NCBI GenBank assembly: GCA_937141935.1
Contig: CAKZQS010000040.1
Span: 1 to 64,000, forward strand
Source: an uncultured Ectothiorhodospiraceae bacterium
GTDB lineage: Bacteria > Pseudomonadota > Gammaproteobacteria > Nevskiales > Oceanococcaceae
Length of the DNA stretch: 64,000 bases
Direction of reading: 5' to 3'
Shown piece by piece: positions 40,094-50,526 of this stretch. The notes under the pieces were generated by a model. That model saw only the letters and a list, made by a program, of their open reading frames with translations. It did no database searches and was not told the DNA's origin. Every line of letters begins with the position of its first letter. The stretch's first letter is position 1. The position numbers and the translations under genes were made by a program.

Positions 40094-41797
40094 CTAGACC
40101 ACGTCGATGCGGGCCGTGCCCGAGGGCACGCTGAGCGTGGCGTCCAGCGTCTGCTCATCGCTGGGCGCCGTGACGGTGGGTACCAGCCAGTATTCGGCCT
40201 GCAAGCGATCGCGATTGATGTCGACGATGAGGTAGCCATTGCGGCTGTCGAAATACTGCCCGTGCGGGTTGACCACCCGCAGCAAATCCCCGTTGGCGGC
40301 AATCAGATCCTCAAGGATGTTGTCCGGGTCGTCGCCGGGGTTGGGGATGCTGCTGACATCGCCGCCGGAGCTGATCGACGGCGTCACGAACTCCACCGCA
40401 TGCGTGCCGATGCCGGTGCGCGGCAGGTAGACGGCGGGGTTGTTCGGGTCGCGGGTCACCTCGAAGGCCAGCGCGGCATGCACGTCGCCGGTCAAAAACA
40501 CCACGTTGTCGACGCCGCCGGCCTCAATGGCATCCAGGATGCGCTCGCGCGCCGGCTCGTAGCCATCCCACTGGTCGGGGTTGGCGTAGATGCTCAGGCC
40601 GGTGGCATTCGGTGCGCCAAAGATCTTGATCTGCGCGAAGACCACCTGGTTGCCCACCAGCCGCCAGGTGGCCGGACTGGACCGCAGCGCATTGATGAAC
40701 CAGGCCTCCTGCTCGGCCCCGAGGATGTGCCGCTCGGGGTCGGTGAATTCGCCGCTCTGGGTAAAAAAGCCGCCCTCGGCGTTGGGCTCGCCCTGGCGGT
40801 CGCGGCCGATGCGGCGCGTGTCCAGCATTATCAGGTCCACCAGGTCGCCGAACTGGAAGCGCCGGTAGATGCGCTCGGGGTTGGCCTCGGGTTCGGGCAG
40901 GCGGATCGGCAGCCACTCAAAGGCCGCGGTGCGCGCCGCCAGCTTGCGCGCGCCGAAGTCGCCGTCCTCGGCCGGGTCATGGTCGTTGGGGTCGGCGCCG
41001 TTCATCCAGGTGCCGTCGACCGTCTCGTGGTCATCCCAGACCCAGATCATCGGGTGCGCCGCGTGCACCGCCTGCAGCTCCGGCTCGGCGCGGTAGCTGG
41101 CGTAGCGCGCGCGGTATTCGTCCAGGCTGCGGATCTCGACCGGCGGCTGGTGCGCGCGCACGCGGTCGCGGTCGGTCTCGTAGATGTAATCGCCCAGGTG
41201 CAGCACGGCGTCGATGTCCTCGCGCTCGGCCAGGCGGGCATAGGCATTCCACAAGCCGCGCGAATAATCGCCGCAGGTGGCCACGCCCAGGCGCAACTGC
41301 TCCAGCGCGCCGCTGGGCGCGGTGCGCGTGCGGCCCACGGGCGAGCGCTGGCCCAGGGCCTCGAAGCGGTAGTAGTAGCGGGTGCCCGGGCGCAGGCCGC
41401 TGACGTCCAGCTTGAGGGTGTAGTCGCGCTCCGGGCCGGTGACATTGGCGTCGGCGGCGCCGGAACTGTCGTCAACGCCATCGCCAGCACGGCGCACGAT
41501 GTTGGTGAAGTCCGGATCGGTGGCCACCTCCCAGCCCACCCGCACCGCGCTGCCGGCCGGCGCGCCGCTGATGCGCGTCCACAGAATCACCGCCCCGGGC
41601 AGCGGGTCGCCCGAGGCCACGCCGTGGCGGAAAACGCGGCCGTCGTCGTCCGGGGCGGGCGATGTCGGGCCGGGCGCGGGGGTGGGGGCGTCCACCGCCC
41701 CGGCGCCCGGGCGGCCACCCTGACAGGCGGGCAGGGCGGCCAGCGCGGCCAGCGAGGCGCCACCCTTGAGCAGCGTGCGGCGGTTCGGCGGCGCCAC
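40094..41797 (-). CDS. phoD: PhoD-type alkaline phosphatase/phosphodiesterase, copy 1
   Basis: A 567-residue PhoD-family enzyme that hydrolyses phosphomono- and diesters outside the cytoplasm, using Fe/Ca ions. The start RRTLLKGGASLAALAALPAC combines a twin-arginine motif and a lipobox-like Cys, so it is Tat-exported and perhaps lipid-anchored. The N-terminal beta domain ([19 protein letters not shown]) and metal-binding segments ATCGDYSRG, HLGDYIYE, WDDHETV and FLTGDVHAA are intact. It starts one base after the PLC-like gene ends, so the two are co-transcribed and may act in sequence on phospholipid headgroups. A second PhoD lies about 7 kb away. Confidence 0.93.
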   Translation of the reverse strand: MAPPNRRTLLKGGASLAALAALPACQGGRPGAGAVDAPTPAPGPTSPAPDDDGRVFRHGVASGDPLPGAVILWTRISGAPAGSAVRVGWEVATDPDFTNIVRRAGDGVDDSSGAADANVTGPERDYTLKLDVSGLRPGTRYYYRFEALGQRSPVGRTRTAPSGALEQLRLGVATCGDYSRGLWNAYARLAEREDIDAVLHLGDYIYETDRDRVRAHQPPVEIRSLDEYRARYASYRAEPELQAVHAAHPMIWVWDDHETVDGTWMNGADPNDHDPAEDGDFGARKLAARTAAFEWLPIRLPEPEANPERIYRRFQFGDLVDLIMLDTRRIGRDRQGEPNAEGGFFTQSGEFTDPERHILGAEQEAWFINALRSSPATWRLVGNQVVFAQIKIFGAPNATGLSIYANPDQWDGYEPARERILDAIEAGGVDNVVFLTGDVHAALAFEVTRDPNNPAVYLPRTGIGTHAVEFVTPSISSGGDVSSIPNPGDDPDNILEDLIAANGDLLRVVNPHGQYFDSRNGYLIVDINRDRLQAEYWLVPTVTAPSDEQTLDATLSVPSGTARIDVV

Positions 41798-41798
41798 G

Positions 41799-43178
41799 CT
41801 AGTTCTCCGCGGCCGTGCGGAAGCTCCAGACGAAGGGCTCGCCCAGCGCCTTGCCGCGTTCGTCGCGCGCCCGGGTGGTCAGCACGGCGGTGTATTCGTG
41901 GTCGGGCAGCAGGGTCTCGCGGATACGCACGCCCAGGCCGTGCGAGCCGCCGCCCTGGTACAGGCGGGCCTGCATGTCTACGGTGTCGGTCGGCACCACG
42001 TTGCCAGCCTCGTCAAAGAGCACCAGCACCCCGGCGCGCTCGGTCTCGGGCACCGCGGCCCAGTGCACCGCGCTGGACAGGTAGGCGCGCAGGTAGCGAT
42101 CCGCCGAGCGGCCTACCGGCACATCGCGCTCGCCGTTCTCCGGGTGCAGCCCGGCCAGCCGCGGCGGGCGGGACTCCGCCACGCCCTGCTGCAGCTTGTC
42201 CCAGAGCTGCTCGTAAAGCGCGGCAATCATGTGCCCCGTGTCGATGACGCCGCCGGAGCCGGTGAAGTAGTGGCCGGCGCCGAAGGGCATCTGCTGGCGC
42301 ACACGGTCGAACTCGACGGCGGCGCCGGCGCGTTCGGCCAGCACCAGCGTGCGCGTGCCCAGCGCGGCGGCCTCGATGCGCTCGGCGCTGGCGCCCTCGG
42401 TGCCGATCTGCTCGTAGACGCTGAGCAGGGTCTGTGTGGGCGGGAAGGTCAGGTAGGGCACATCCGCCCAGATGTCCTGCTCGCGGATCGCGATGACATC
42501 CATGGAATATTCCATGCTGTTCAGCGAGGCCGAGCCGAAGCCGGAGGCAAGCAGGTCAAAGGGCTCGTCGCCAACCACGGCGCGCAGCGCATCGCCAACG
42601 CTGCTGTCGGCGCCGGGCGGGAAGGCATCCGCCGTGTAGGCCGGCGAGGATTCCAGGTCCTCGCCGCGCTCCTGCAGCTGCGGCTCGAACAGCGAATCCC
42701 AAACCTGATCCCCCAGGCCGTGCGCGGCCATGCCCATCGCGAAGGCGATCTTGGTGCCGCAGCTATCGTCGATGCGCACCTCGGCCAGCGGCAGCACCTC
42801 CTCCAGCACCCGGTCGTAATAGTCCAGCGTGCCGTTGAACACCGGAATCTCCAGCCCGTTGCCCTGCGTGCAGCCCTCGGCGCGCAGCTGCTCCATCAGG
42901 GGGTTGTGGAAGTACTCCCAATGCGCGTGTTCGGCGATGTCGCGCCCCGCGGGGTCGACGATGCCGGTGAAATAGCCGCCGTCCGGGTAGATCGCGCCGG
43001 CCAGCAGCGCCGGGCGGTGGGCCGTCAGGATCGCCTTCAGCGGATGGCTGTCCGCCAGGTAGGTGCGGCCGTACTCGGCCATCAGCGCGTGGGTGGCCAT
43101 GCCGGCGGCATGCAGCGGCAGGCTGGCGAAGCCGAGCAGCAGGCTGCCGACGGTGGCGGGGAGCAGGGAAGGCTTCAT
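41799..43178 (-). CDS. Secreted zinc-dependent phospholipase C-like protein
   Basis: A 459-residue exported protein with a signal peptide ending LPLHAAG. The N-terminal 250 residues are helical with many His/Asp/Trp in the pattern of Zn-dependent PLC/S1-P1-like folds: MATHALMAEYG, AGAIYPDGGYF, EHAHWEYF, and GMAAHGLGDQVWDSLFE. The last 110 residues are an Ig-like beta domain (LHPENGERDVPVGRSADRYLRAYLSSAV). It likely releases phosphorylated headgroups from phospholipids. Immediately upstream of phoD in the same operon. The family assignment rests on motif pattern, not on overall similarity. Confidence 0.78.
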   Translation of the reverse strand: MKPSLLPATVGSLLLGFASLPLHAAGMATHALMAEYGRTYLADSHPLKAILTAHRPALLAGAIYPDGGYFTGIVDPAGRDIAEHAHWEYFHNPLMEQLRAEGCTQGNGLEIPVFNGTLDYYDRVLEEVLPLAEVRIDDSCGTKIAFAMGMAAHGLGDQVWDSLFEPQLQERGEDLESSPAYTADAFPPGADSSVGDALRAVVGDEPFDLLASGFGSASLNSMEYSMDVIAIREQDIWADVPYLTFPPTQTLLSVYEQIGTEGASAERIEAAALGTRTLVLAERAGAAVEFDRVRQQMPFGAGHYFTGSGGVIDTGHMIAALYEQLWDKLQQGVAESRPPRLAGLHPENGERDVPVGRSADRYLRAYLSSAVHWAAVPETERAGVLVLFDEAGNVVPTDTVDMQARLYQGGGSHGLGVRIRETLLPDHEYTAVLTTRARDERGKALGEPFVWSFRTAAEN

Positions 43179-43208
43179 CGATGGGCGCTCCGGTGGGGCA
43201 CGCAGGAT

Positions 43209-43562
43209 CTAGGGTTGGCTGGGCGCCGCCTCGCGCAGGGCGCGGCGGCGGGCAAAGGCCTCGCGGGCCTCCACCAGCGCCGCTTCGGGCACGGGCGTCG
43301 GCGTGGGCGTGACAGTCGCGGTGGGCGTCGCCGTGGGGGCGGCGCTGGGCGAGGTCGTGGGCGCCGCGGTCGTGACCGGTGTGGCCGGGGGCGTCACGGC
43401 GGGCGTCGGCGAAGGCTCGCTCGTCGGGCGCGGGGTGGGCGTGGTGGCCGGCGTCGGCGATGCCGAGCCCAGCGGCGCACCGCGATTGCCGTCATCGCCA
43501 TCGCCGCCACAGGCCGCCAGCAGCAGCGCCAGCAGCAACAGGGGCACGGAGAGTCGGCTCAT
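43209..43562 (-). CDS. Thr/Pro-rich lipoprotein
   Basis: A 117-residue lipoprotein: signal SRLSVPLLLLALLLAAC, a Gly/Asp patch, then about 60 residues of Thr-Pro-Ala-Ser repeats and a short charged helix (EAREAFARRRALREA). The repeat zone is an extended spacer. No family. It lies 30 bases before the PLC-like gene, in the same direction. Confidence 0.7.
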   Translation of the reverse strand: MSRLSVPLLLLALLLAACGGDGDDGNRGAPLGSASPTPATTPTPRPTSEPSPTPAVTPPATPVTTAAPTTSPSAAPTATPTATVTPTPTPVPEAALVEAREAFARRRALREAAPSQP

Positions 43563-43740
43563 GCGCAGACCATGGCAGGAAAAAAGCAGCCTGACATCGT
43601 CGCCGAAAAAGATGACGACGCGGCGACAGGGCTCGCGCAGGCGCTGCGGGCGCCAGCCTGGGCCCAGGCCCAGGACCAGCCCCGGGCTCGGCGCCGGGCC
43701 GACAAGGGCCGGCTGCGGGTCGGGAGTACGGGTGCCGCGC

Positions 43741-44190
43741 TCATCGTGGCTTCGCCGGGCGGTGCAACAGATCCTCGCGGCGCGAGCGCAGCTTGGGCTT
43801 CTGCGCCAGGGCCTCCAGGCGGCTGTCCGCCGGGGCGGCCGCGGGCGCCGCGGCACCGCTTGCTCGCGCGGCCCCGGTCGCCCGCGCGCCCCCGCTCGCC
43901 CGCGGTCGTTCCTCGGGCGCTGCCAGGTCGGGGTCCTGGCGGCCGCGCAGCATGCGGCTCAGTTCCCAGAAGCACCACAGCAGCGCGGCGTAGACGATGG
44001 CGGTCTTCAACAGCAGCGCCGGCCCCAGCCACGCCGGAGCACGCGTCTCCAGGTAGGCCGCGATGTCCGCATAGACCCAGGCGCTGGTCAGCGCGAAGGC
44101 CACCGCAAACAGCATCCGCAGCAGCCGCGCCCGATAGCGCCGCAGCAGCGTGAGCAGCGCGGCGGTGCGGGCAAAGCGGTACAGCGACAT
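43741..44190 (-). CDS. Hypothetical membrane protein
   Basis: A 149-residue protein with two or three hydrophobic helices in the first 80 residues (LLRMLFAVAFALTSAWVYADIAAYL, ALLLKTAIVYAALLWCFWEL) and a long Ala/Gly/Arg-rich cytoplasmic tail. No family recognised. It begins six bases after the 78-residue gene, so the two are coupled. Confidence 0.65.
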   Translation of the reverse strand: MSLYRFARTAALLTLLRRYRARLLRMLFAVAFALTSAWVYADIAAYLETRAPAWLGPALLLKTAIVYAALLWCFWELSRMLRGRQDPDLAAPEERPRASGGARATGAARASGAAAPAAAPADSRLEALAQKPKLRSRREDLLHRPAKPR

Positions 44191-44196
44191 GGCCCG

Positions 44197-44433
44197 CTAG
44201 AAGAGGTTGATGCCCAGCAGGGCCAGCGCACCCAGCAGCCCGGTTTGCTTGATGTCGGCGAGCACATCCTTCTCGGCATCGGCCAGCAGGTATTCCAGGT
44301 CCTGCGTGGACAGCTCGCTCTCGCTTTTGCCGGCCAGGATCAAATCCTTACGCACCCGCCGCACAGCGGCCTCACGCACGCGGCGGCGGATGACCTTGTG
44401 CGGCAGGTAGCGGCCGAGCGTTTCCAGGTCCAT
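44197..44433 (-). CDS. Small hypothetical protein with hydrophobic C-terminus
   Basis: A 78-residue protein: a basic N-terminal half (PHKVIRRRVREAAVRRVRKDL), an acidic helix (TQDLEYLLADAEKDVLADIK) and a hydrophobic end (TGLLGALALLGINLF) that could insert into a membrane. ATG at 44433. No family recognised. Operon partner of the next membrane protein. Confidence 0.65.
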   Translation of the reverse strand: MDLETLGRYLPHKVIRRRVREAAVRRVRKDLILAGKSESELSTQDLEYLLADAEKDVLADIKQTGLLGALALLGINLF

Positions 44434-44520
44434 GGCGGGCGGGCAGGGGGCGAGCCCCGATTGTATCGCCGCGCCCGGCCGCTGCAGCGCGTCCCCCTGC
44501 TGCGGCAACGCCTCGCCGCG

Positions 44521-45285
44521 TCAGGCGGCGGCTGCTCCGTGCAGGGCCTGTGGGCCGGCAGCCAGCATCGCGCGCAGCTCGCCGCCCAGCGCCAGGCTCA
44601 GGTCATGCGGGTGCAGCGCGATTCGCAGGCTCGCGCCGGAACGCCGGGCCAGGGCGAGCTGGGCGTGGTTCCAGCGCCGCAGCAAGGCGGCGCGCCAGGC
44701 CGTGTCGGCCTCGAAGCCGAGCAGCGGAAGGGCTTGCGAGCGGCCGCTGGCGCAATCGAGCAAGCCGGCCGCGGTTTCCACCTGGCGGTAGGGCAGCCGC
44801 CGCAGGTCGCCGCGCCGCAGCGGCCCCAGCGCCCAGGCTGGCGGCACGTAGAGCGCGGGCGGGGGCAGGCCCTGCGTGGCGAACCACTGCGCCGCCCGGC
44901 GCATCAGGCTCAGGGCCTGGCCGCGCGACAGGGCCAGATGCTCGCCGGCGTCCCGCGAGATCAGCGCCGCGTGCAGGCGCGAGCGCAGCCCGCGCACATG
45001 CCCCAGGCGATGGGTCCAGCCGTGCGCGGCCAGGGGGTGGCCCTGTGCGGACCAGGCCCGGAGCTGCGCCACTTCGGCCGGCCGCCACGCTCGCCCCGGC
45101 ACGACCAGCAAGGTGGCCGGGGGCCAGCCGGCCGCGCGCAGCAAGGCCAGCAGTTCGCGACAATCGTCCAGCGTCTCCGGCATGACGTCGTGCACGGAGA
45201 CCGTGGGTGGCGGCAGCGGCGGCGAGGACGGCGCCGTGGCTGAGGCGGGCTCTGCCGGCCCGGCCGGCAACAGGCGCGCGGCCAT
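44521..45285 (-). CDS. Polysaccharide deacetylase-like protein (DUF2334)
   Basis: A 254-residue protein of the DUF2334/NodB-like type, a beta/alpha barrel that removes acetyl groups from sugars. Metal-site candidates are VSVHDVMPE near residue 31, HGWTHRLGH near residue 90 and the late LHPHDLS. ATG at 45285 shares a base with the glycosyltransferase stop. No signal peptide, so it would act in the cytoplasm on a lipid-linked or nucleotide sugar, or be exported otherwise. Confidence 0.8.
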   Translation of the reverse strand: MAARLLPAGPAEPASATAPSSPPLPPPTVSVHDVMPETLDDCRELLALLRAAGWPPATLLVVPGRAWRPAEVAQLRAWSAQGHPLAAHGWTHRLGHVRGLRSRLHAALISRDAGEHLALSRGQALSLMRRAAQWFATQGLPPPALYVPPAWALGPLRRGDLRRLPYRQVETAAGLLDCASGRSQALPLLGFEADTAWRAALLRRWNHAQLALARRSGASLRIALHPHDLSLALGGELRAMLAAGPQALHGAAAA

Positions 45286-46463
45286 CAACGGGGCCCGCGC
45301 CTGGGCCGGGCGTGCTGCTCGATCAGGGCCAGCCATTGCCTGAGGGTCTGCGCGTTCAGCGCCTCGGCGGCCTGGCGGGCCTGGCGGCCCACGCGCCGCC
45401 AGCGCGCGGCGGGCAGGCCGCGCAGCGTCTCCAGCCCTTCCAGCACGCTTTGCCCCGGCTCCAGCCGGAACAACCCGCCGCGCAGTTGCGGCCAGTCGTG
45501 GATGCCGGCGCCGGCGGCGACCAGGGCAGGGCGCCCGCGGGCCATCGCCTCCAGCGCGATGGTGCCAAAGGTTTCCAGCGCCGATGGCAGCAGCAGCAAG
45601 TCGGCGGCGTCCAGCTCGTGGCGCAAGGCCGCGCGGCTGAGCCAGCCGTGAAAGCGCACGTTGTCCAGGCCGCGGGCCTGCCGGCGCAGGGCCTGGCGCA
45701 GGGGGCCGTCGCCGCAGATCGAAAAGTCCACCTGTGGCAGTTCGGCCGCGGCCGCGATGATGGCGTCGACGTTCTTCTCCGGCGCCAGGCGGCCGGCGAA
45801 CAGCACCCGGTGCAGCGCGCCGCTGAGCGGACGCGGCGGCGCCTGCAGGAAGGCCGGCGCCAGCGGGGTGCCCATGACATCGGTCTGCGCCGCCCCCAGC
45901 GCGCGCACGGTTTCGATCAGCCGCGGGTTGTGCACCATGACCGTGGCGCTGTGCCGGCAGATCAGCCCGTTCGTGGCGCTCAGGTAGGTATTGGCCAGGC
46001 GCCGCGACACGGGGTTCCAATACAGCCGCGACAGCTCCTCGAACTGGGTGTGAAAGCCGGAGATGAAGCCGCAGCCCTGCTGGCGTGCCAGCGCCAGCCC
46101 CAGCAGCCCGAAGGGGCCGGGCGTGATCGCCACCACGACATCGGGCCGCAAGGCGGCAAAGCGGGCCCAGATCTTGGGCACATTGGGCGTCAGCAGCTTT
46201 TGCGTGGCATCGCCGGGCAGCGGCAGGGCCACCCGCGGCAGCCGGGCGCGCGCCGCCGGCTGGAACATCGCCACCGCCTCGATCCGCGTTTCCAGATGGC
46301 CCATCAGGTCGTGGTAGTAGCTTCCGGCCCCGTTGCGCTCGGGCAGGGCATCGGAGAAGAAAGCCACGCGCAGCGGCCGCAGGCCGCCGCGGGCCGTTTG
46401 CGCCGGCGCCCGCGCCAGGCGTGCCGGGGCCGCCTCCGCGACCGCGAGTTCAGGATGCCTCAC
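45285..46463 (-). CDS. GT4-family glycosyltransferase
   Basis: A 392-residue retaining glycosyltransferase with the GT-B fold. N-terminal acceptor domain: VAFFSDALPERNGAGSYYHDL and ITPGPFGLLGLALARQQG followed by FHTQFEELSRLYW, as in glycolipid-forming MgtA/SqdX-like enzymes. C-terminal donor domain: LFAGRLAPEKN, CGDGPLR, FHGWLS and the E-x7-E region PSALETFGTIALEAMA. The start is GTG with GGAG nine bases upstream, overlapping the sulfotransferase by 14 bases. Sugar donor and acceptor unknown. Confidence 0.9.
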   Translation of the reverse strand: MRHPELAVAEAAPARLARAPAQTARGGLRPLRVAFFSDALPERNGAGSYYHDLMGHLETRIEAVAMFQPAARARLPRVALPLPGDATQKLLTPNVPKIWARFAALRPDVVVAITPGPFGLLGLALARQQGCGFISGFHTQFEELSRLYWNPVSRRLANTYLSATNGLICRHSATVMVHNPRLIETVRALGAAQTDVMGTPLAPAFLQAPPRPLSGALHRVLFAGRLAPEKNVDAIIAAAAELPQVDFSICGDGPLRQALRRQARGLDNVRFHGWLSRAALRHELDAADLLLLPSALETFGTIALEAMARGRPALVAAGAGIHDWPQLRGGLFRLEPGQSVLEGLETLRGLPAARWRRVGRQARQAAEALNAQTLRQWLALIEQHARPRRGPR

Positions 46464-47601
46464 GCAATCTCTCTCCTTCCTGGGCGAGCAAACATTCGTA
46501 ATCGGCCTGCATCGGCGGGCTGTCGAGGTGTTCGGGCCGATGCCGATGCGCGCTGCGGTAGCGGCGGCTGGCGCTCTCGGCGGCGGCCAGCGCGGCCTGC
46601 AGCTCGGGCCCCGCGGGCAGGGCAAGCTCGGCGAGCAGGCGCTCCAGCGTGCTGCCGGCGTGCTGCTTCAGCGTGGCCATGTCGAGCACCCGCACGCGCT
46701 CGGGGTAGCGCCGCTGCGCCTGGCGCAGGTGCGCATAGCCCTGCTCGTAGGCGCGGCGAAATTGTTCGGGGTAGAGCCGGTCCGGGCGCGTGCCGAGCAG
46801 GCTGTGGCCCGGCGCGACGGCGCTGAGCTGGGAACTCAGGGCCGCCTCCGGCTCCCGGATGCACAGGAGGAAACGGGCATCCGGGAAGGCCTCGGCCAGG
46901 GCCTCGACCCAGGTCGCAAAGGCGGCGTTCTTGCTCAGCAGGCGGCGCTGGCCGCCGTCGGCGTAGAGCTGCTTTTGCAGCATGCGCCGGTAGAACCCGA
47001 CGATGAGTTCGCGCTCGGGCGCGCCCATGCGGTCCAGCGCCGCCAGCCGCCACAGGGCGGCGCTGTGCGGGAAGGCCAGTGCCAGGATGAAGCAGGCGCC
47101 GGCGGGCAGCAGCGCGAGGTAGTCCTCCTCGGCGGCCTCCAGCGCGGTCTCGTGGATGGCGTCCAGTTGCCCGAGCAAGCGCCGACTCAGGGCGTCGACG
47201 CCGCGGCGGCCCCAGCCGCCGAGCCGCGCGTCGGCGGCGATCAGCGCCCGCCAGGCCTTGCGTTCGCTGACGGAGGGGGCGAGCAGCGCCTCCCAGGTGC
47301 GCATGGTGCAGCGATCCGGGTCGGCGGCCAGCGTGCGGTGCACAAAGGTGGTGCCGCTGCGCGGCACCCCCAGGATGAACAGCGGGGCCTCGATGCGCTG
47401 GCGGCGGTAGCCGGGGTAGAGCACTTCGTCCAGCGCAAAGCCCAGCCAGTGCAGCGACTGCAGCGTCAGGTAGGGCGGCAGGCCCAGCGCCAGCGTCGCC
47501 ACACGCCGTGGCGTCAGGGGCGCCGCGCTCTGTCCGGGGCGCAGCGCCTGGCCGATCCAGGTGCCGTGCAGGCGCAGGCTGCGGGTCAGGGCGGCAAACA
47601 T
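46450..47601 (-). CDS. Sulfotransferase family protein
   Basis: A 383-residue PAPS-dependent sulfotransferase. The 5'-phosphosulfate loop is GVPRSGTTFVHRTL near residue 80; a second region, KNAAFATWVEALAEAFPDARFLLCIREP, supplies the 3'-phosphate-binding Arg/Ser. It belongs to the group acting on lipids or glycans rather than small phenols, judging from size and the N-terminal helical region. First gene of the eight-gene minus-strand run; together with the glycosyltransferase it suggests a sulfated glycolipid or glycan. ATG at 47601. Confidence 0.88.
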   Translation of the reverse strand: MFAALTRSLRLHGTWIGQALRPGQSAAPLTPRRVATLALGLPPYLTLQSLHWLGFALDEVLYPGYRRQRIEAPLFILGVPRSGTTFVHRTLAADPDRCTMRTWEALLAPSVSERKAWRALIAADARLGGWGRRGVDALSRRLLGQLDAIHETALEAAEEDYLALLPAGACFILALAFPHSAALWRLAALDRMGAPERELIVGFYRRMLQKQLYADGGQRRLLSKNAAFATWVEALAEAFPDARFLLCIREPEAALSSQLSAVAPGHSLLGTRPDRLYPEQFRRAYEQGYAHLRQAQRRYPERVRVLDMATLKQHAGSTLERLLAELALPAGPELQAALAAAESASRRYRSAHRHRPEHLDSPPMQADYECLLAQEGERLREAS

Positions 47602-47774
47602 GGGCGCATTGTCAAAGCCGCCGATGACGCTTTGGTTGCCGCAGTGTTGCGGCTTTGCGTCAGTGCCGGCCCGTGGCGGGGCGCGCGGCCCCGCCCCGCA
47701 AACCAAGCGGGCTGCGCCGGGAGCATTCGGCGACAATGCGGGTCTGAGTGTTTGGGTTGTCCGTCGGGGGCGAG

Positions 47775-48545
47775 ATGTCGTCTGTGCGAAATCGCATCGT
47801 TTTGAATGCCCGGCCCTTAGCGGCTGCGGGGGCGGCTGTGGGGTCAGCTCTGGCGCGCGGGCGCGGGGCCGTGCGGCAGGGGCGCCGTGTGGCGGCGGGG
47901 CTGCTGCTGTGGCCGCTCGCTGCGTTGCTCGGCGGCTGCGCCACCTTGAGTGCCGACGAATGCCACAACGCCAACTGGCGCGACCTGGGCCACACCGAGG
48001 GTGCGCAGGGTTACCGCATGACGCGCTTTCGCGAGCACATCAAGGCCTGCAGCGCGCATGGGGTGTCGCCGGTGCTGGATGATTACCTCAAGGGCCACCG
48101 CGCCGGCCTGGCGCAGTGGTGCGAGCGCCCCAGCGCCGGCTTCGAGCGGGGCCGCAGCGGCGGCGACCGCCCGGAAGGGCTGTGTGAACCCACGCAGGCC
48201 CGGGCGATCCTCGCGGCCTGGGAGCACGGCCATGGCGTGCGTCAGGCCGAACTCGATTACGAGCGCGCCGAGCGCGACTACGAGCAGGCCCGCCACGACC
48301 TCTACCGCATCGAGGGCGAGGTCGACCGCCTGCGCCTGGCGCTGATCCACGACGAGGGCAACCCCGAGCACCGCCGCGAGCAGCTCAATCGGCTCGATTA
48401 TCTGCGCGCCCGGGCGGTGGAGGAGTCCTTCCGCCTGCAGCGGGCCCGCCGCGATGCGCTGCGCGCGCAGGCCGAGTACGACCGCCGCCTGGCCGACTGG
48501 CGGGCCGAACAGCGGCGCCAGGAGGCGCGCGCTAGCGCGGGTTGA
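47775..48545 (+). CDS. DUF2799 lipoprotein
   Basis: A 256-residue lipoprotein. The long leader (about 45 residues, Arg-rich) ends in a hydrophobic stretch and lipobox LLGGC. The DUF2799 core follows (DECHNANWRDLGHTEGAQG, then a repeated C..HG-DY pattern), and the last 110 residues form an extended charged coiled coil (LDYERAERDYEQARHDLYRIEGEVDRLRL). ATG at 47775 chosen; it is preceded by GGGGGCGAG. Its end overlaps the convergent second PhoD gene by 14 bases. Function unknown; the coiled coil implies a periplasmic stalk. Confidence 0.8.
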   Translation: MSSVRNRIVLNARPLAAAGAAVGSALARGRGAVRQGRRVAAGLLLWPLAALLGGCATLSADECHNANWRDLGHTEGAQGYRMTRFREHIKACSAHGVSPVLDDYLKGHRAGLAQWCERPSAGFERGRSGGDRPEGLCEPTQARAILAAWEHGHGVRQAELDYERAERDYEQARHDLYRIEGEVDRLRLALIHDEGNPEHRREQLNRLDYLRARAVEESFRLQRARRDALRAQAEYDRRLADWRAEQRRQEARASAG

Positions 48546-50526
48546 GCTCGCCCTCGGGGGCCAGCGGCGCGGCGCGGCTGCCCTGCGTCGGGCTGACCAT
48601 CATCCCGTGCACCGTCACGGCATCGATCTGGTCGCGGTAGCGCGGGCTGGGCAGCGCCGCGGGGTCGTCGCTGGCGTAGCTGATCATCTGCTGGCCCAGC
48701 ACGTCGGGCGAATCCGGCGTCAGCTTGTCCTGCCACCAGTATTCGAAGGTGGCGGCCTCGGCGGTCAGGTGCAGCAGGCCGTAGCCGTGGTCCACCCACT
48801 CGATGTACTGGCAATTGCGGTCGGCGTTGATGACCAGCTGCTCGATGGCCCGGCTGCCCAGCACCTGGTCGGCGCGGGTGCTCAGCGGGTTGGCATTGGC
48901 GATCAGCTCGTCGGCGCCGCCGCGGCCCATGGAGGTGGGCGCGAACTCCACGCCCACCGATTGCGCGCGGTTGTTCAGCAGCGCCGTGTTGCCGGAGGTG
49001 GCGCGCATGAAGCCGGCGAGCTGGTTTTCGAGGGTCGAGCCGCTGCGCGGGTTCAGGATCGGCAGCCCGCTCAGGTAGCTGCTGGCGACGCTGAGGCTTT
49101 CGACCAGGTCCGAGGCCCAGTTGCCATGGGTGTCGCCGGAGAGCACGACATTGTTGGCGATGCGGCTGCCGGCCGGGTTGTCGCCGCGCAGGTAGGCAAA
49201 CAGGCGGTCGCGCTCCTGCGTGTAGCTGGCCCAGCGTGACAGGCCCAGGAGCTGGCTGTCGTCGCCGGGGATCAGCTGCGGCTCAATCGGCGCCAGCCAG
49301 TGCTGGTTCACCAGCAGGCGCCAGGTCTTGCCGGCGGCGGCCGACTCCGACAGGCCGGCCGTCAGCCACTCGAACTGGGGCCGGCCCAACTTGCTCGGGG
49401 CGCCGTCGAGGTGGCTGCTGTCGGTCTCCACCTCGCCCGTGGTCCGCGACCAGGTGTCCAGGCAGAAAATGTCGGCCAGCGGGCCGTAATCGAGCTTGCG
49501 GTACAGCAGCGGCTGGCGCGGCGCCTCCGGGTAGGAGCCATCCTCGACCAGCAGGAACTCGCCGGAGCCGTCGGGGCGCGGTGGGCGCGAGGGCGTCCAC
49601 TCCCAAAACGCCTGCACCACGTCCTCCAGCGTGGTGGTCGATTCCAGATCCGGCGCGGCCAGCTCGTTGCCGTAGCCCACCGAGATGTCGTGGTTGTCCC
49701 AGATGATGCTCCAGGGGTGCTGCTGGTGGGCCCGCAGGTGGTTGGGGTCCGAGCGCCACAGCGCATAACGGCGGCGCACCTCGTCCAGGTTGGTCCAGTC
49801 GCGATAGTCGACGTCGTTGGTGTCGAAGCGGTCCAGTCGGGCGCGCACTTCCTCGTCGTTGTCGACGAAGTCGTAGATGTAGTCGCCGCAGTGCACGACG
49901 AGGTCCAGGTCCTCGCGGTTGGCAATGTGCCCATAGCCGGACCACCAGCTGGACCAATAGCTGGAGCAGGCCACCACGGCGATGCGCAAGGATTCCACCA
50001 TGCTGTCCGGCGCCGTGCGGGTGCGGCCGATGATCGAGTCGGCCCCCAGCGCGCTGAACTGGTAGTAATAGCTTCGCCCGGCGGCCAGGCCCGTGGCATC
50101 CACCTTCACCGTGTAATCGCGGGCGGCGATGGCATCCTGGCTGCCCGCGGCCACGACGCCGGTGACCTGCGGCTGCGCGCCGCTGTCGTCAAAGCCGGTG
50201 CCGATGCGCCACTGCACCGGCACGGGCTCGCCATCCGGCTGCGGGCGGGTCACGCGGGTCCACAGGATCACGCGGTCGGCGAGCGGGTCGCCACTGGCCA
50301 CGCCGTGGGCAAAGGGCAGGGGCGTGACCTGCGGAAAGTCGAAATCCAGTGCGCCGGGGTCGGTACCGGGGTCGGCACCGGGGTTGTTGCCCGGGTCCGG
50401 GGCCGGCGCAGCCGGCCCGCCGCCCGGCGTCGAATTGGCGCCATCGCAGGCGCCAAGCAGTGGCAGGCTGCCCGCGGCGGGCAGGGCGCTCAGGCCTTTC
50501 AGCAGGGTACGGCGGGTCGTGCTCAT
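48532..50526 (-). CDS. PhoD-type alkaline phosphatase/phosphodiesterase, copy 2
   Basis: A 664-residue PhoD-family protein, about 100 residues longer than copy 1. The start [25 protein letters not shown] is a twin-arginine signal with a lipobox; a Gly/Pro/Asp linker precedes [19 protein letters not shown]. Metal-site segments: [27 protein letters not shown] and LSGDTHGNW. The pairwise layout matches copy 1 but the sequences have diverged well, so they probably differ in substrate. It has no operon partner. Confidence 0.92.

Follow-up and report, generated by a model that had tools for sequence, protein, structure and literature searches.

The question raised by a run of eight genes in an uncultured Ectothiorhodospiraceae bacterium (GCA_937141935.1) is whether they act together or whether a smaller unit lies among them. 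The genes occupy 40094–47601 on the minus strand of contig C40 (CAKZQS010000040.1), within the 64,000 nucleotides analysed here (the window); the host genome consists of 3.57 Mb in 52 contigs. In the order of transcription they encode a sulfotransferase (ST), a glycosyltransferase of the GT4 family, a DUF2334 deacetylase, proteins of 78 and 149 amino acids (aa), a lipoprotein-like protein, a phospholipase C-like (PLC-like) enzyme and PhoD. A preliminary description had located the eight genes correctly and suggested that they could be one system that makes a sulfated glycolipid and recovers phosphate from lipid headgroups. Its signal was a true one and its border was wrong: the signal above chance is limited to the first three genes, as this trio, unlike the eight-gene run, is found again in distant genomes. 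Delimited from sequence, the putative unit comprises 44521–47601 and the promoter at 47624–47650, with the PLC-like and PhoD genes as neighbours only. On balance we favour the reading that the trio is a phosphate-starvation operon that would build a phosphorus-free, sulfated amino-sugar glycolipid. A sulfated glycolipid linked to phosphate limitation is retained as the best reading for these three genes, and the PLC-like enzyme and PhoD are dropped from it.

The neighbourhoods of GT4 relatives were fetched and then searched with the window proteins, giving 21 relative loci, 19 of them distinct (L016 and L017 duplicate L032 and L031, each being counted once); weak GT4 matches of less than 40% identity (L021–L024) lie outside the analysis. 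The DUF2334 gene adjoins GT4 in all 21 loci, and ST lies directly upstream of GT4 in 19 (17 of the 19 distinct). With the window and two further genomes (G625 and G234) added, the GT4 and DUF2334 genes lie side by side and point the same way in all 22 distinct genomes, with broken frames in G234, and a contiguous ST–GT4–DUF2334 arrangement is found in 19. The exceptions among the relative loci are L027, which ends at a contig edge while the same genome has its ST on another contig, ~110 bases short of the end, and L047 (genome G439), where no close ST was found anywhere in the genome. The second genome of the latter genus, G234, likewise has its broken pair without ST. In that copy (L110 5325–6901) GT4 is divided between two frames and DUF2334 contains an in-frame TAG, as in a decaying copy or an assembly error. 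ST and GT4 are present in the identical 9 of 85 genomes of the order, and ST without the GT4–DUF2334 pair was found neither there nor in the 299 genomes of a phylum sample. This GT4 was found in 10 of 369 genomes sampled from the class, and this ST in 2/299 of the phylum sample. The trio genes are tightly packed in the window, with overlaps of 14 bases (ST/GT4) and one base (GT4/DUF2334, TGATG), and both junctions overlap in all 16 trio loci measured when the most upstream start is used.

ST and GT4 are joined in a single open frame with both Pfam domains in two loci, L042 9227–11515 (minus strand, 762 aa) and L045 783–3257 (plus strand, 824 aa). The GT4 tree requires two separate events for these fusions even if only the well-supported branches are kept, and in the ST tree they fall in different supported clades. 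Judging by these trees, ST and GT4 have fused twice independently. The GT4, ST and DUF2334 trees show the same main groups (L104, with a frame of 12 aa, is excluded from the DUF2334 tree, and the broken pair of G234 from all trees). The trio genomes include Gammaproteobacteria and two Verrucomicrobiota (Opitutia), and the nesting of the two Opitutia trios in an otherwise gammaproteobacterial tree suggests transfer between phyla. Four loci additionally carry a gene for a small membrane protein of the GtrA/DPMS type, a candidate flippase, directly upstream of ST (L018 1–465, L019 4728–5174, L020 6158–6787 and L042 11512–12012).

The two halves of the run, on whose adjacency in relatives the preliminary description had let its single system depend, are never adjacent in the 21 relative loci: none of these contains a match to the 78-aa, 149-aa, lipoprotein, PLC-like or PhoD gene. 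Of the 85 genomes of the order, 17 have the PLC-like gene; the trio is missing from ten of these 17, and two of the nine trio genomes are without the PLC-like gene. In five relatives, neither PhoD nor the small genes were found alongside it. Within the window an 87-base gap separates DUF2334 from the start of the 78-aa gene at 44433 and splits the run, and a Pho-type site was looked for upstream of 44433, the PLC-like gene and PhoD, with none found. A single phosphate-starvation operon of all eight genes, including the PLC-like enzyme and PhoD, is very improbable against this evidence, even though the genes share one direction and short gaps and the abutting PLC-like and PhoD genes might be co-transcribed locally. 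Because in relatives they are never beside the trio, and because they show no Pho-type site and, for the PLC-like gene, differ in phyletic pattern, these two are placed outside the pathway.

The ST is assigned to the sulfotransferases that use 3'-phosphoadenosine-5'-phosphosulfate (PAPS) by a PF13469 score over threshold together with a PRSGTT loop (P80–T85), which is invariant in 18 of 18 members; this is the 5'-phosphosulfate loop of PAPS sulfotransferases. A conserved hydrophobic stretch or helix precedes the loop and the catalytic domain. The AlphaFold2 model matches Mycobacterium tuberculosis STF1 (E 2e-8) and M. avium STF9 (E 4e-8), and is of middling quality (predicted local distance difference test 69, predicted template modelling score 0.73). 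A sequence search of the PDB returned mycobacterial and tyrosylprotein sulfotransferases, and the comparison with NoeE gave 21 bits only. In the DUF2334 protein D33, H88 and H92 are invariant in 20 of 20 members; Asp-His-His is the metal-binding motif of carbohydrate esterase 4 (CE4). Its model matches the CE4 fold at Z up to 13.6, including chitin and peptidoglycan deacetylases, with Z 12.4 for ArnD and Z 10.1 for the deacetylase portion of human NDST1; the PDB sequence search gave nothing significant for this protein. It is a predicted CE4 enzyme by modelled fold and motif. The ExFG...E motif of GT4 is invariant in 20 of 20 members, and the PDB sequence search returned general GT4 enzymes.

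The GpgSD enzymes of Pseudomonas aeruginosa attach N-acetylglucosamine (GlcNAc) to phosphatidylglycerol (PG) and then deacetylate it (PMC12713373). The best NCBIfam match of the window GT4 is the GlcNAc-PG synthase (NF053787), at 46 bits and below the cut-off of 480, and the sole family matched by the window DUF2334 protein is the GlcNAc-PG deacetylase (NF053788), at 75.5 bits with the cut-off of 280 not reached. All 20 GT4 members and all 20 DUF2334 members match the respective model. Membership of GpgS and GpgD was rejected on these scores (46/480 and 75/280 bits). GpgS proteins from three genomes form a clade separate from the trio GT4 with 100/100 support, and long branches set the trio GT4 and DUF2334 apart from GpgS and GpgD. 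When 114 genomes of the class were searched with the GpgS profile, three scored over the cut-off and the window genome was unmatched at 1e-20. Since the closest characterised families are lipid-acting glucosaminyl-PG (GlcN-PG) enzymes, GT4 and DUF2334 most likely form a new clade of lipid aminosugar pairs that would have gained a sulfotransferase.

The case for phosphate control comes from the promoters. The preliminary description had pointed to 47601 and 44433 as places where a Pho box should be sought; a Pho-box-like triple repeat lies upstream of the former, and no such site was found upstream of the latter. The pattern GYMAY-N6-GYMAY-N6-GYMAY has one match in the window (47624–47650; 0.11 expected) and 14 in the whole genome, while the reversed control pattern has 0. 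The repeat, with its period of 11 bp, was noticed only after the relatives had given sites of 11/14, and was then given its own genome-wide search; the recovery of phoB in that search played no part in choosing the relaxed half-site weights. One match lies 25 bp before phoB, a classic Pho gene (L123, contig C18; TIGR02154 335 bits, over cut-off). Others lie 59 bp before an OlsB-like gene (L126, contig C30), 35 bp before a gene for an LpxH/PlcP-type metallophosphoesterase (L132, contig C52) and ~61 bp before a gene for an MJ1255-family glycosyltransferase (L119, contig C4). The PlcP-type gene matches general metallophosphoesterase models and, under cut-off, LpxH, and is a candidate PlcP. Published Pho boxes have been described before olsB in Acinetobacter (PMC11828411) and in plcP clusters (PMC4796936; PMC8528852). 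Together with the trio, the sites before the MJ1255-family, phoB, OlsB-like and PlcP-type genes look like a lipid-remodelling Pho regulon. Among the relatives, 6 of 19 ST upstream regions match the Pho box consensus CTGTCATNNNNCTGTCAT at 11/14, with shuffle means of 8.2 to 8.8. The published Pho box was found at p<=0.05 in 7 of 20 trio promoters (Fisher 7e-6 against random windows drawn from those loci); after removal of the near-copies L076 and L032 the count is 6/18 (Fisher 1.3e-4), and scores exceed those of 437 control open reading frame upstream regions (p 2.6e-4). L018 is left out of these tests because its contig begins with the GtrA gene. The gene starts in the relatives were our own choice, and the promoter windows shift with them by some tens of bases (in L044, 11607 vs 11562).

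Several observations weigh against this reading. Under the strict Escherichia coli consensus the window ST site scores 8/14 (p 0.57), which is not significant, and the weights of the relaxed half-sites were set with the window site already in view. Ten of the 14 pattern matches are not at known Pho genes: besides the MJ1255-family gene, these are the remaining nine, which include an acyl-CoA synthetase, a TonB receptor and a CehA/McbA-type hydrolase, and several are intragenic. No Pho site appears in the promoters of L019, L020 and L042, where the GtrA gene comes first, or in those of L041, L046 and L047. The scores of GT4 and DUF2334, far under the GlcN-PG family cut-offs, mean that homology does not fix the sugar or the acceptor. 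A strict Pho-box scan of the window, allowing up to three mismatches, gave two matches, both distant from the run and in a number expected by chance. Searches for sigma-70 promoters and for terminators were uninformative.

The sequences themselves show the three families with intact motifs, the conservation of the unit, the two fusions and the shared Pho-type sites, and from these we infer a course of synthesis in which the sugar, the acceptor, the position of the sulfate, the order of steps and the expression are conjectural. PhoB would switch the operon on through the repeat at 47624–47650, as the sites suggest. To judge by the nearest characterised families, GT4 would transfer an N-acetylhexosamine, probably GlcNAc from UDP-GlcNAc, to a membrane lipid. 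The acceptor would most likely be diacylglycerol released from phospholipid by a PlcP-type enzyme encoded elsewhere; its preference over PG is drawn from the Pho control only and is the weakest step. The fold, intact motif and family of DUF2334 indicate that it would then deacetylate the sugar and so expose a free amine. Gene linkage and the two fusions point to sulfation by ST, which would come last, with PAPS and on the cytosolic side. A final position of ST fits the distribution of the genes, because a genus with the pair and without a close ST exists (G439, G234) and no ST without the pair was found. The product head, bearing an amine and a sulfate, would be a charge-balanced substitute for phosphatidylethanolamine. 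Only tentatively do we extend this to a fuller picture, in which phosphatidylethanolamine is replaced in phosphate-poor water by a sulfated-glucosamine diacylglycerol, its sulfate and amine imitating the phosphate and amine of the lipid replaced. It would be made by an NDST-like route, in which GlcNAc is transferred, deacetylated and sulfated, and which would also have moved into Verrucomicrobiota.

With the eight-gene operon set aside, the alternatives concern what the trio modifies. The same steps could act on PG, as in GpgSD, and yield a sulfated GlcN-PG with a role in surface charge rather than phosphate saving. The best NCBIfam matches of GT4 and DUF2334 agree with this, as does the placing of the deacetylase gene after GT4, which the three inspected GpgS loci share. 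However, the distance to the family cut-offs and the long branches to GpgS and GpgD tell against it, a phosphorus-free product better fits a Pho-type promoter, and we regard a PG acceptor as unlikely. Somewhat more doubtful is modification of lipopolysaccharide, a lipid-linked glycan or an exopolysaccharide, where sulfate would replace phosphate at the outer surface, in place of a free membrane lipid. The GtrA/DPMS-type genes, the nearness of the deacetylase fold to ArnD, whose substrate is a lipid-linked sugar, and the exopolysaccharide enzyme profiles among the GT4 matches would suit such a role, but most loci are without GtrA, and no recurrent polysaccharide genes were found beside the trio across 20 clustered loci. 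Little credence is given to a soluble compound, thiol-like or a signal molecule, made in the manner of BshA/MshA plus a deacetylase and then sulfated. The BshA profile does match 19 of the 20 GT4 members, but the GlcN-PG synthase profile matches every one of the 20 and reaches the better top E-value, DUF2334 matches a lipid deacetylase, and the BshB/MshB deacetylases belong to a different family from DUF2334.

The coordinates of the run are collected in Table 1. Pfam assignments agree with the preliminary description for five of the eight genes, and the families predicted for ST, GT4, DUF2334 and PhoD hold at the scores given there. The PLC-like protein gives a Zn_dep_PLPC match just under the Pfam cut-off and also carries Big_5. 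A Pfam search gave no match for the three small proteins, which had been called unknown envelope proteins.

Table 1. Putative promoter and genes of the run on contig C40, in order of transcription
Feature	Position	Strand	Remarks
Pho-box-like site	47624..47650	-	three half-sites, 11-bp period, GCAAC-N6-GCAAC-N6-GTCAT; 22 bp upstream of ST start
Sulfotransferase (ST), 383 aa, PAPS type	46450..47601	-	PF13469 (Sulfotransfer_3) 85.3 bits, threshold 27
GT4 glycosyltransferase, 392 aa, GTG start	45285..46463	-	PF00534/PF13692; Glycos_transf_1 75 bits
DUF2334 deacetylase, predicted CE4 fold	44521..45285	-	DUF2334 Pfam 49 bits
78-aa conserved protein, outside trio unit	44197..44433	-	no Pfam match; in 4/85 genomes of the order
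149-aa membrane-type protein, outside trio unit	43741..44190	-	no Pfam match; no match in trio loci
117-aa lipoprotein-like protein, Pro/Thr-rich, outside trio unit	43209..43562	-	no Pfam match; no match in trio loci
Zn-dependent PLC-like protein with Big_5 domain, outside trio unit	41799..43178	-	PF00882 26.7 bits, Pfam cut-off 26.8
PhoD alkaline phosphatase, outside trio unit	40094..41797	-	PF09423 318 bits

Within the order, the 78-aa protein occurs only in the window genome and three relatives of the same bacterial family, where it is 72–77% identical and lies at other loci. A TACAAT shortly upstream of its gene start may mark a promoter of its own. PhoD has six matches in the genome, of which two stand within 10 kb of each other in the window and one more is on contig C40; the second PhoD lies at 48532–50526 on the minus strand. 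Weak Pho-type sites precede the lipoprotein gene (p 0.02–0.04) and this second PhoD (p 0.02–0.05). Of the four remaining PhoD genes of the genome, whose starts are uncertain, two carry a match of two half-sites at p 0.006. Elsewhere, a gene for a CehA/McbA-type metallohydrolase lipoprotein lies 36 bp after a triple site (L130, C46:154939–154965) and is a possible further Pho gene.

Known phosphate-saving lipids are glycolipids, glucuronic-acid lipids, betaine lipids, ornithine lipids and sulfoquinovosyldiacylglycerol (SQDG), and sulfur is plentiful in seawater. If the proposed pathway is correct, a sulfate-ester aminoglycolipid would be another trade of phosphorus for sulfur, one that retains both charges of the phospholipid head, and a function would be gained for a DUF2334 subfamily and a Sulfotransfer_3 clade. 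The trio could serve as a marker in metagenomes, and the ST–GT4 fusions, as single polypeptides, are good candidates for expression. Searches of a collection of open-access full text found no sulfated aminoglycolipid pathway and no sulfated or plain glucosaminyl diacylglycerol, and nothing on a sulfotransferase together with the Pho regulon, phosphate starvation, lipid and glycosyltransferase.

Compared with known systems, the trio is a further variant of the lipid aminosugar and phosphate-starvation glycolipid pathways. It would share with heparan sulfate NDST the coupling of GlcNAc deacetylation to a PAPS sulfotransferase, and the DUF2334 model aligns to NDST1; here, however, the proteins are separate, the likeness seen is one of fold, and many other CE4 enzymes align better. 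SQDG and Nod-factor sulfation resemble the proposed product as a sulfur-bearing glycolipid and a sulfated lipo-sugar, although the sulfur of SQDG is in a sulfonate, the work of SqdB, unlike that of the proposed sulfate ester. PlcP-Agt remodelling (PMC4796936, PMC8528852) likewise has a glycosyltransferase behind a Pho box, and the PlcP-type gene here has its own Pho-type site. The products described for PlcP-Agt are, however, neutral or glucuronic-acid glycolipids, and no deacetylase or sulfotransferase appears in the accessible text of these papers. Many, not all, known clusters pair plcP with a glycosyltransferase gene (PMC4796936), whereas here the PlcP-type gene lies outside the operon, on contig C52. 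The PLC-like neighbour had been proposed as the remodelling phospholipase C; PlcP is cited as a metallophosphoesterase (PMC8528852), and the neighbour is of the PF00882 (Zn_dep_PLPC) type, with an adjacency to the glycosyltransferase gene that is not conserved.

The closest likeness is to two lipid aminosugar systems. GpgSDF of P. aeruginosa (PMC12713373) shares the order of GT4 and deacetylase genes, an aminosugar on a lipid and the best family match of both proteins. In the accessible account GpgSDF is without a sulfotransferase and its product contains phosphate, whereas the trio forms a separate clade under the family cut-offs; four trio loci have a GtrA gene in place of a GpgF-type flippase, for which no directed search was made. 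In Clostridioides difficile, HexS and HexD do likewise on a glycolipid, giving aminohexosyl-hexosyldiradylglycerol (PMC10128005). HexSDF thus shares a glycosyltransferase and a deacetylase leading to an amino-sugar glycolipid on a phosphorus-free anchor, but as described there it has no sulfotransferase, is annotated with other protein families and is controlled by HexRK. The best reading of the trio is as a system nearest to GpgSD and HexSD, but with a putative sulfotransferase step.

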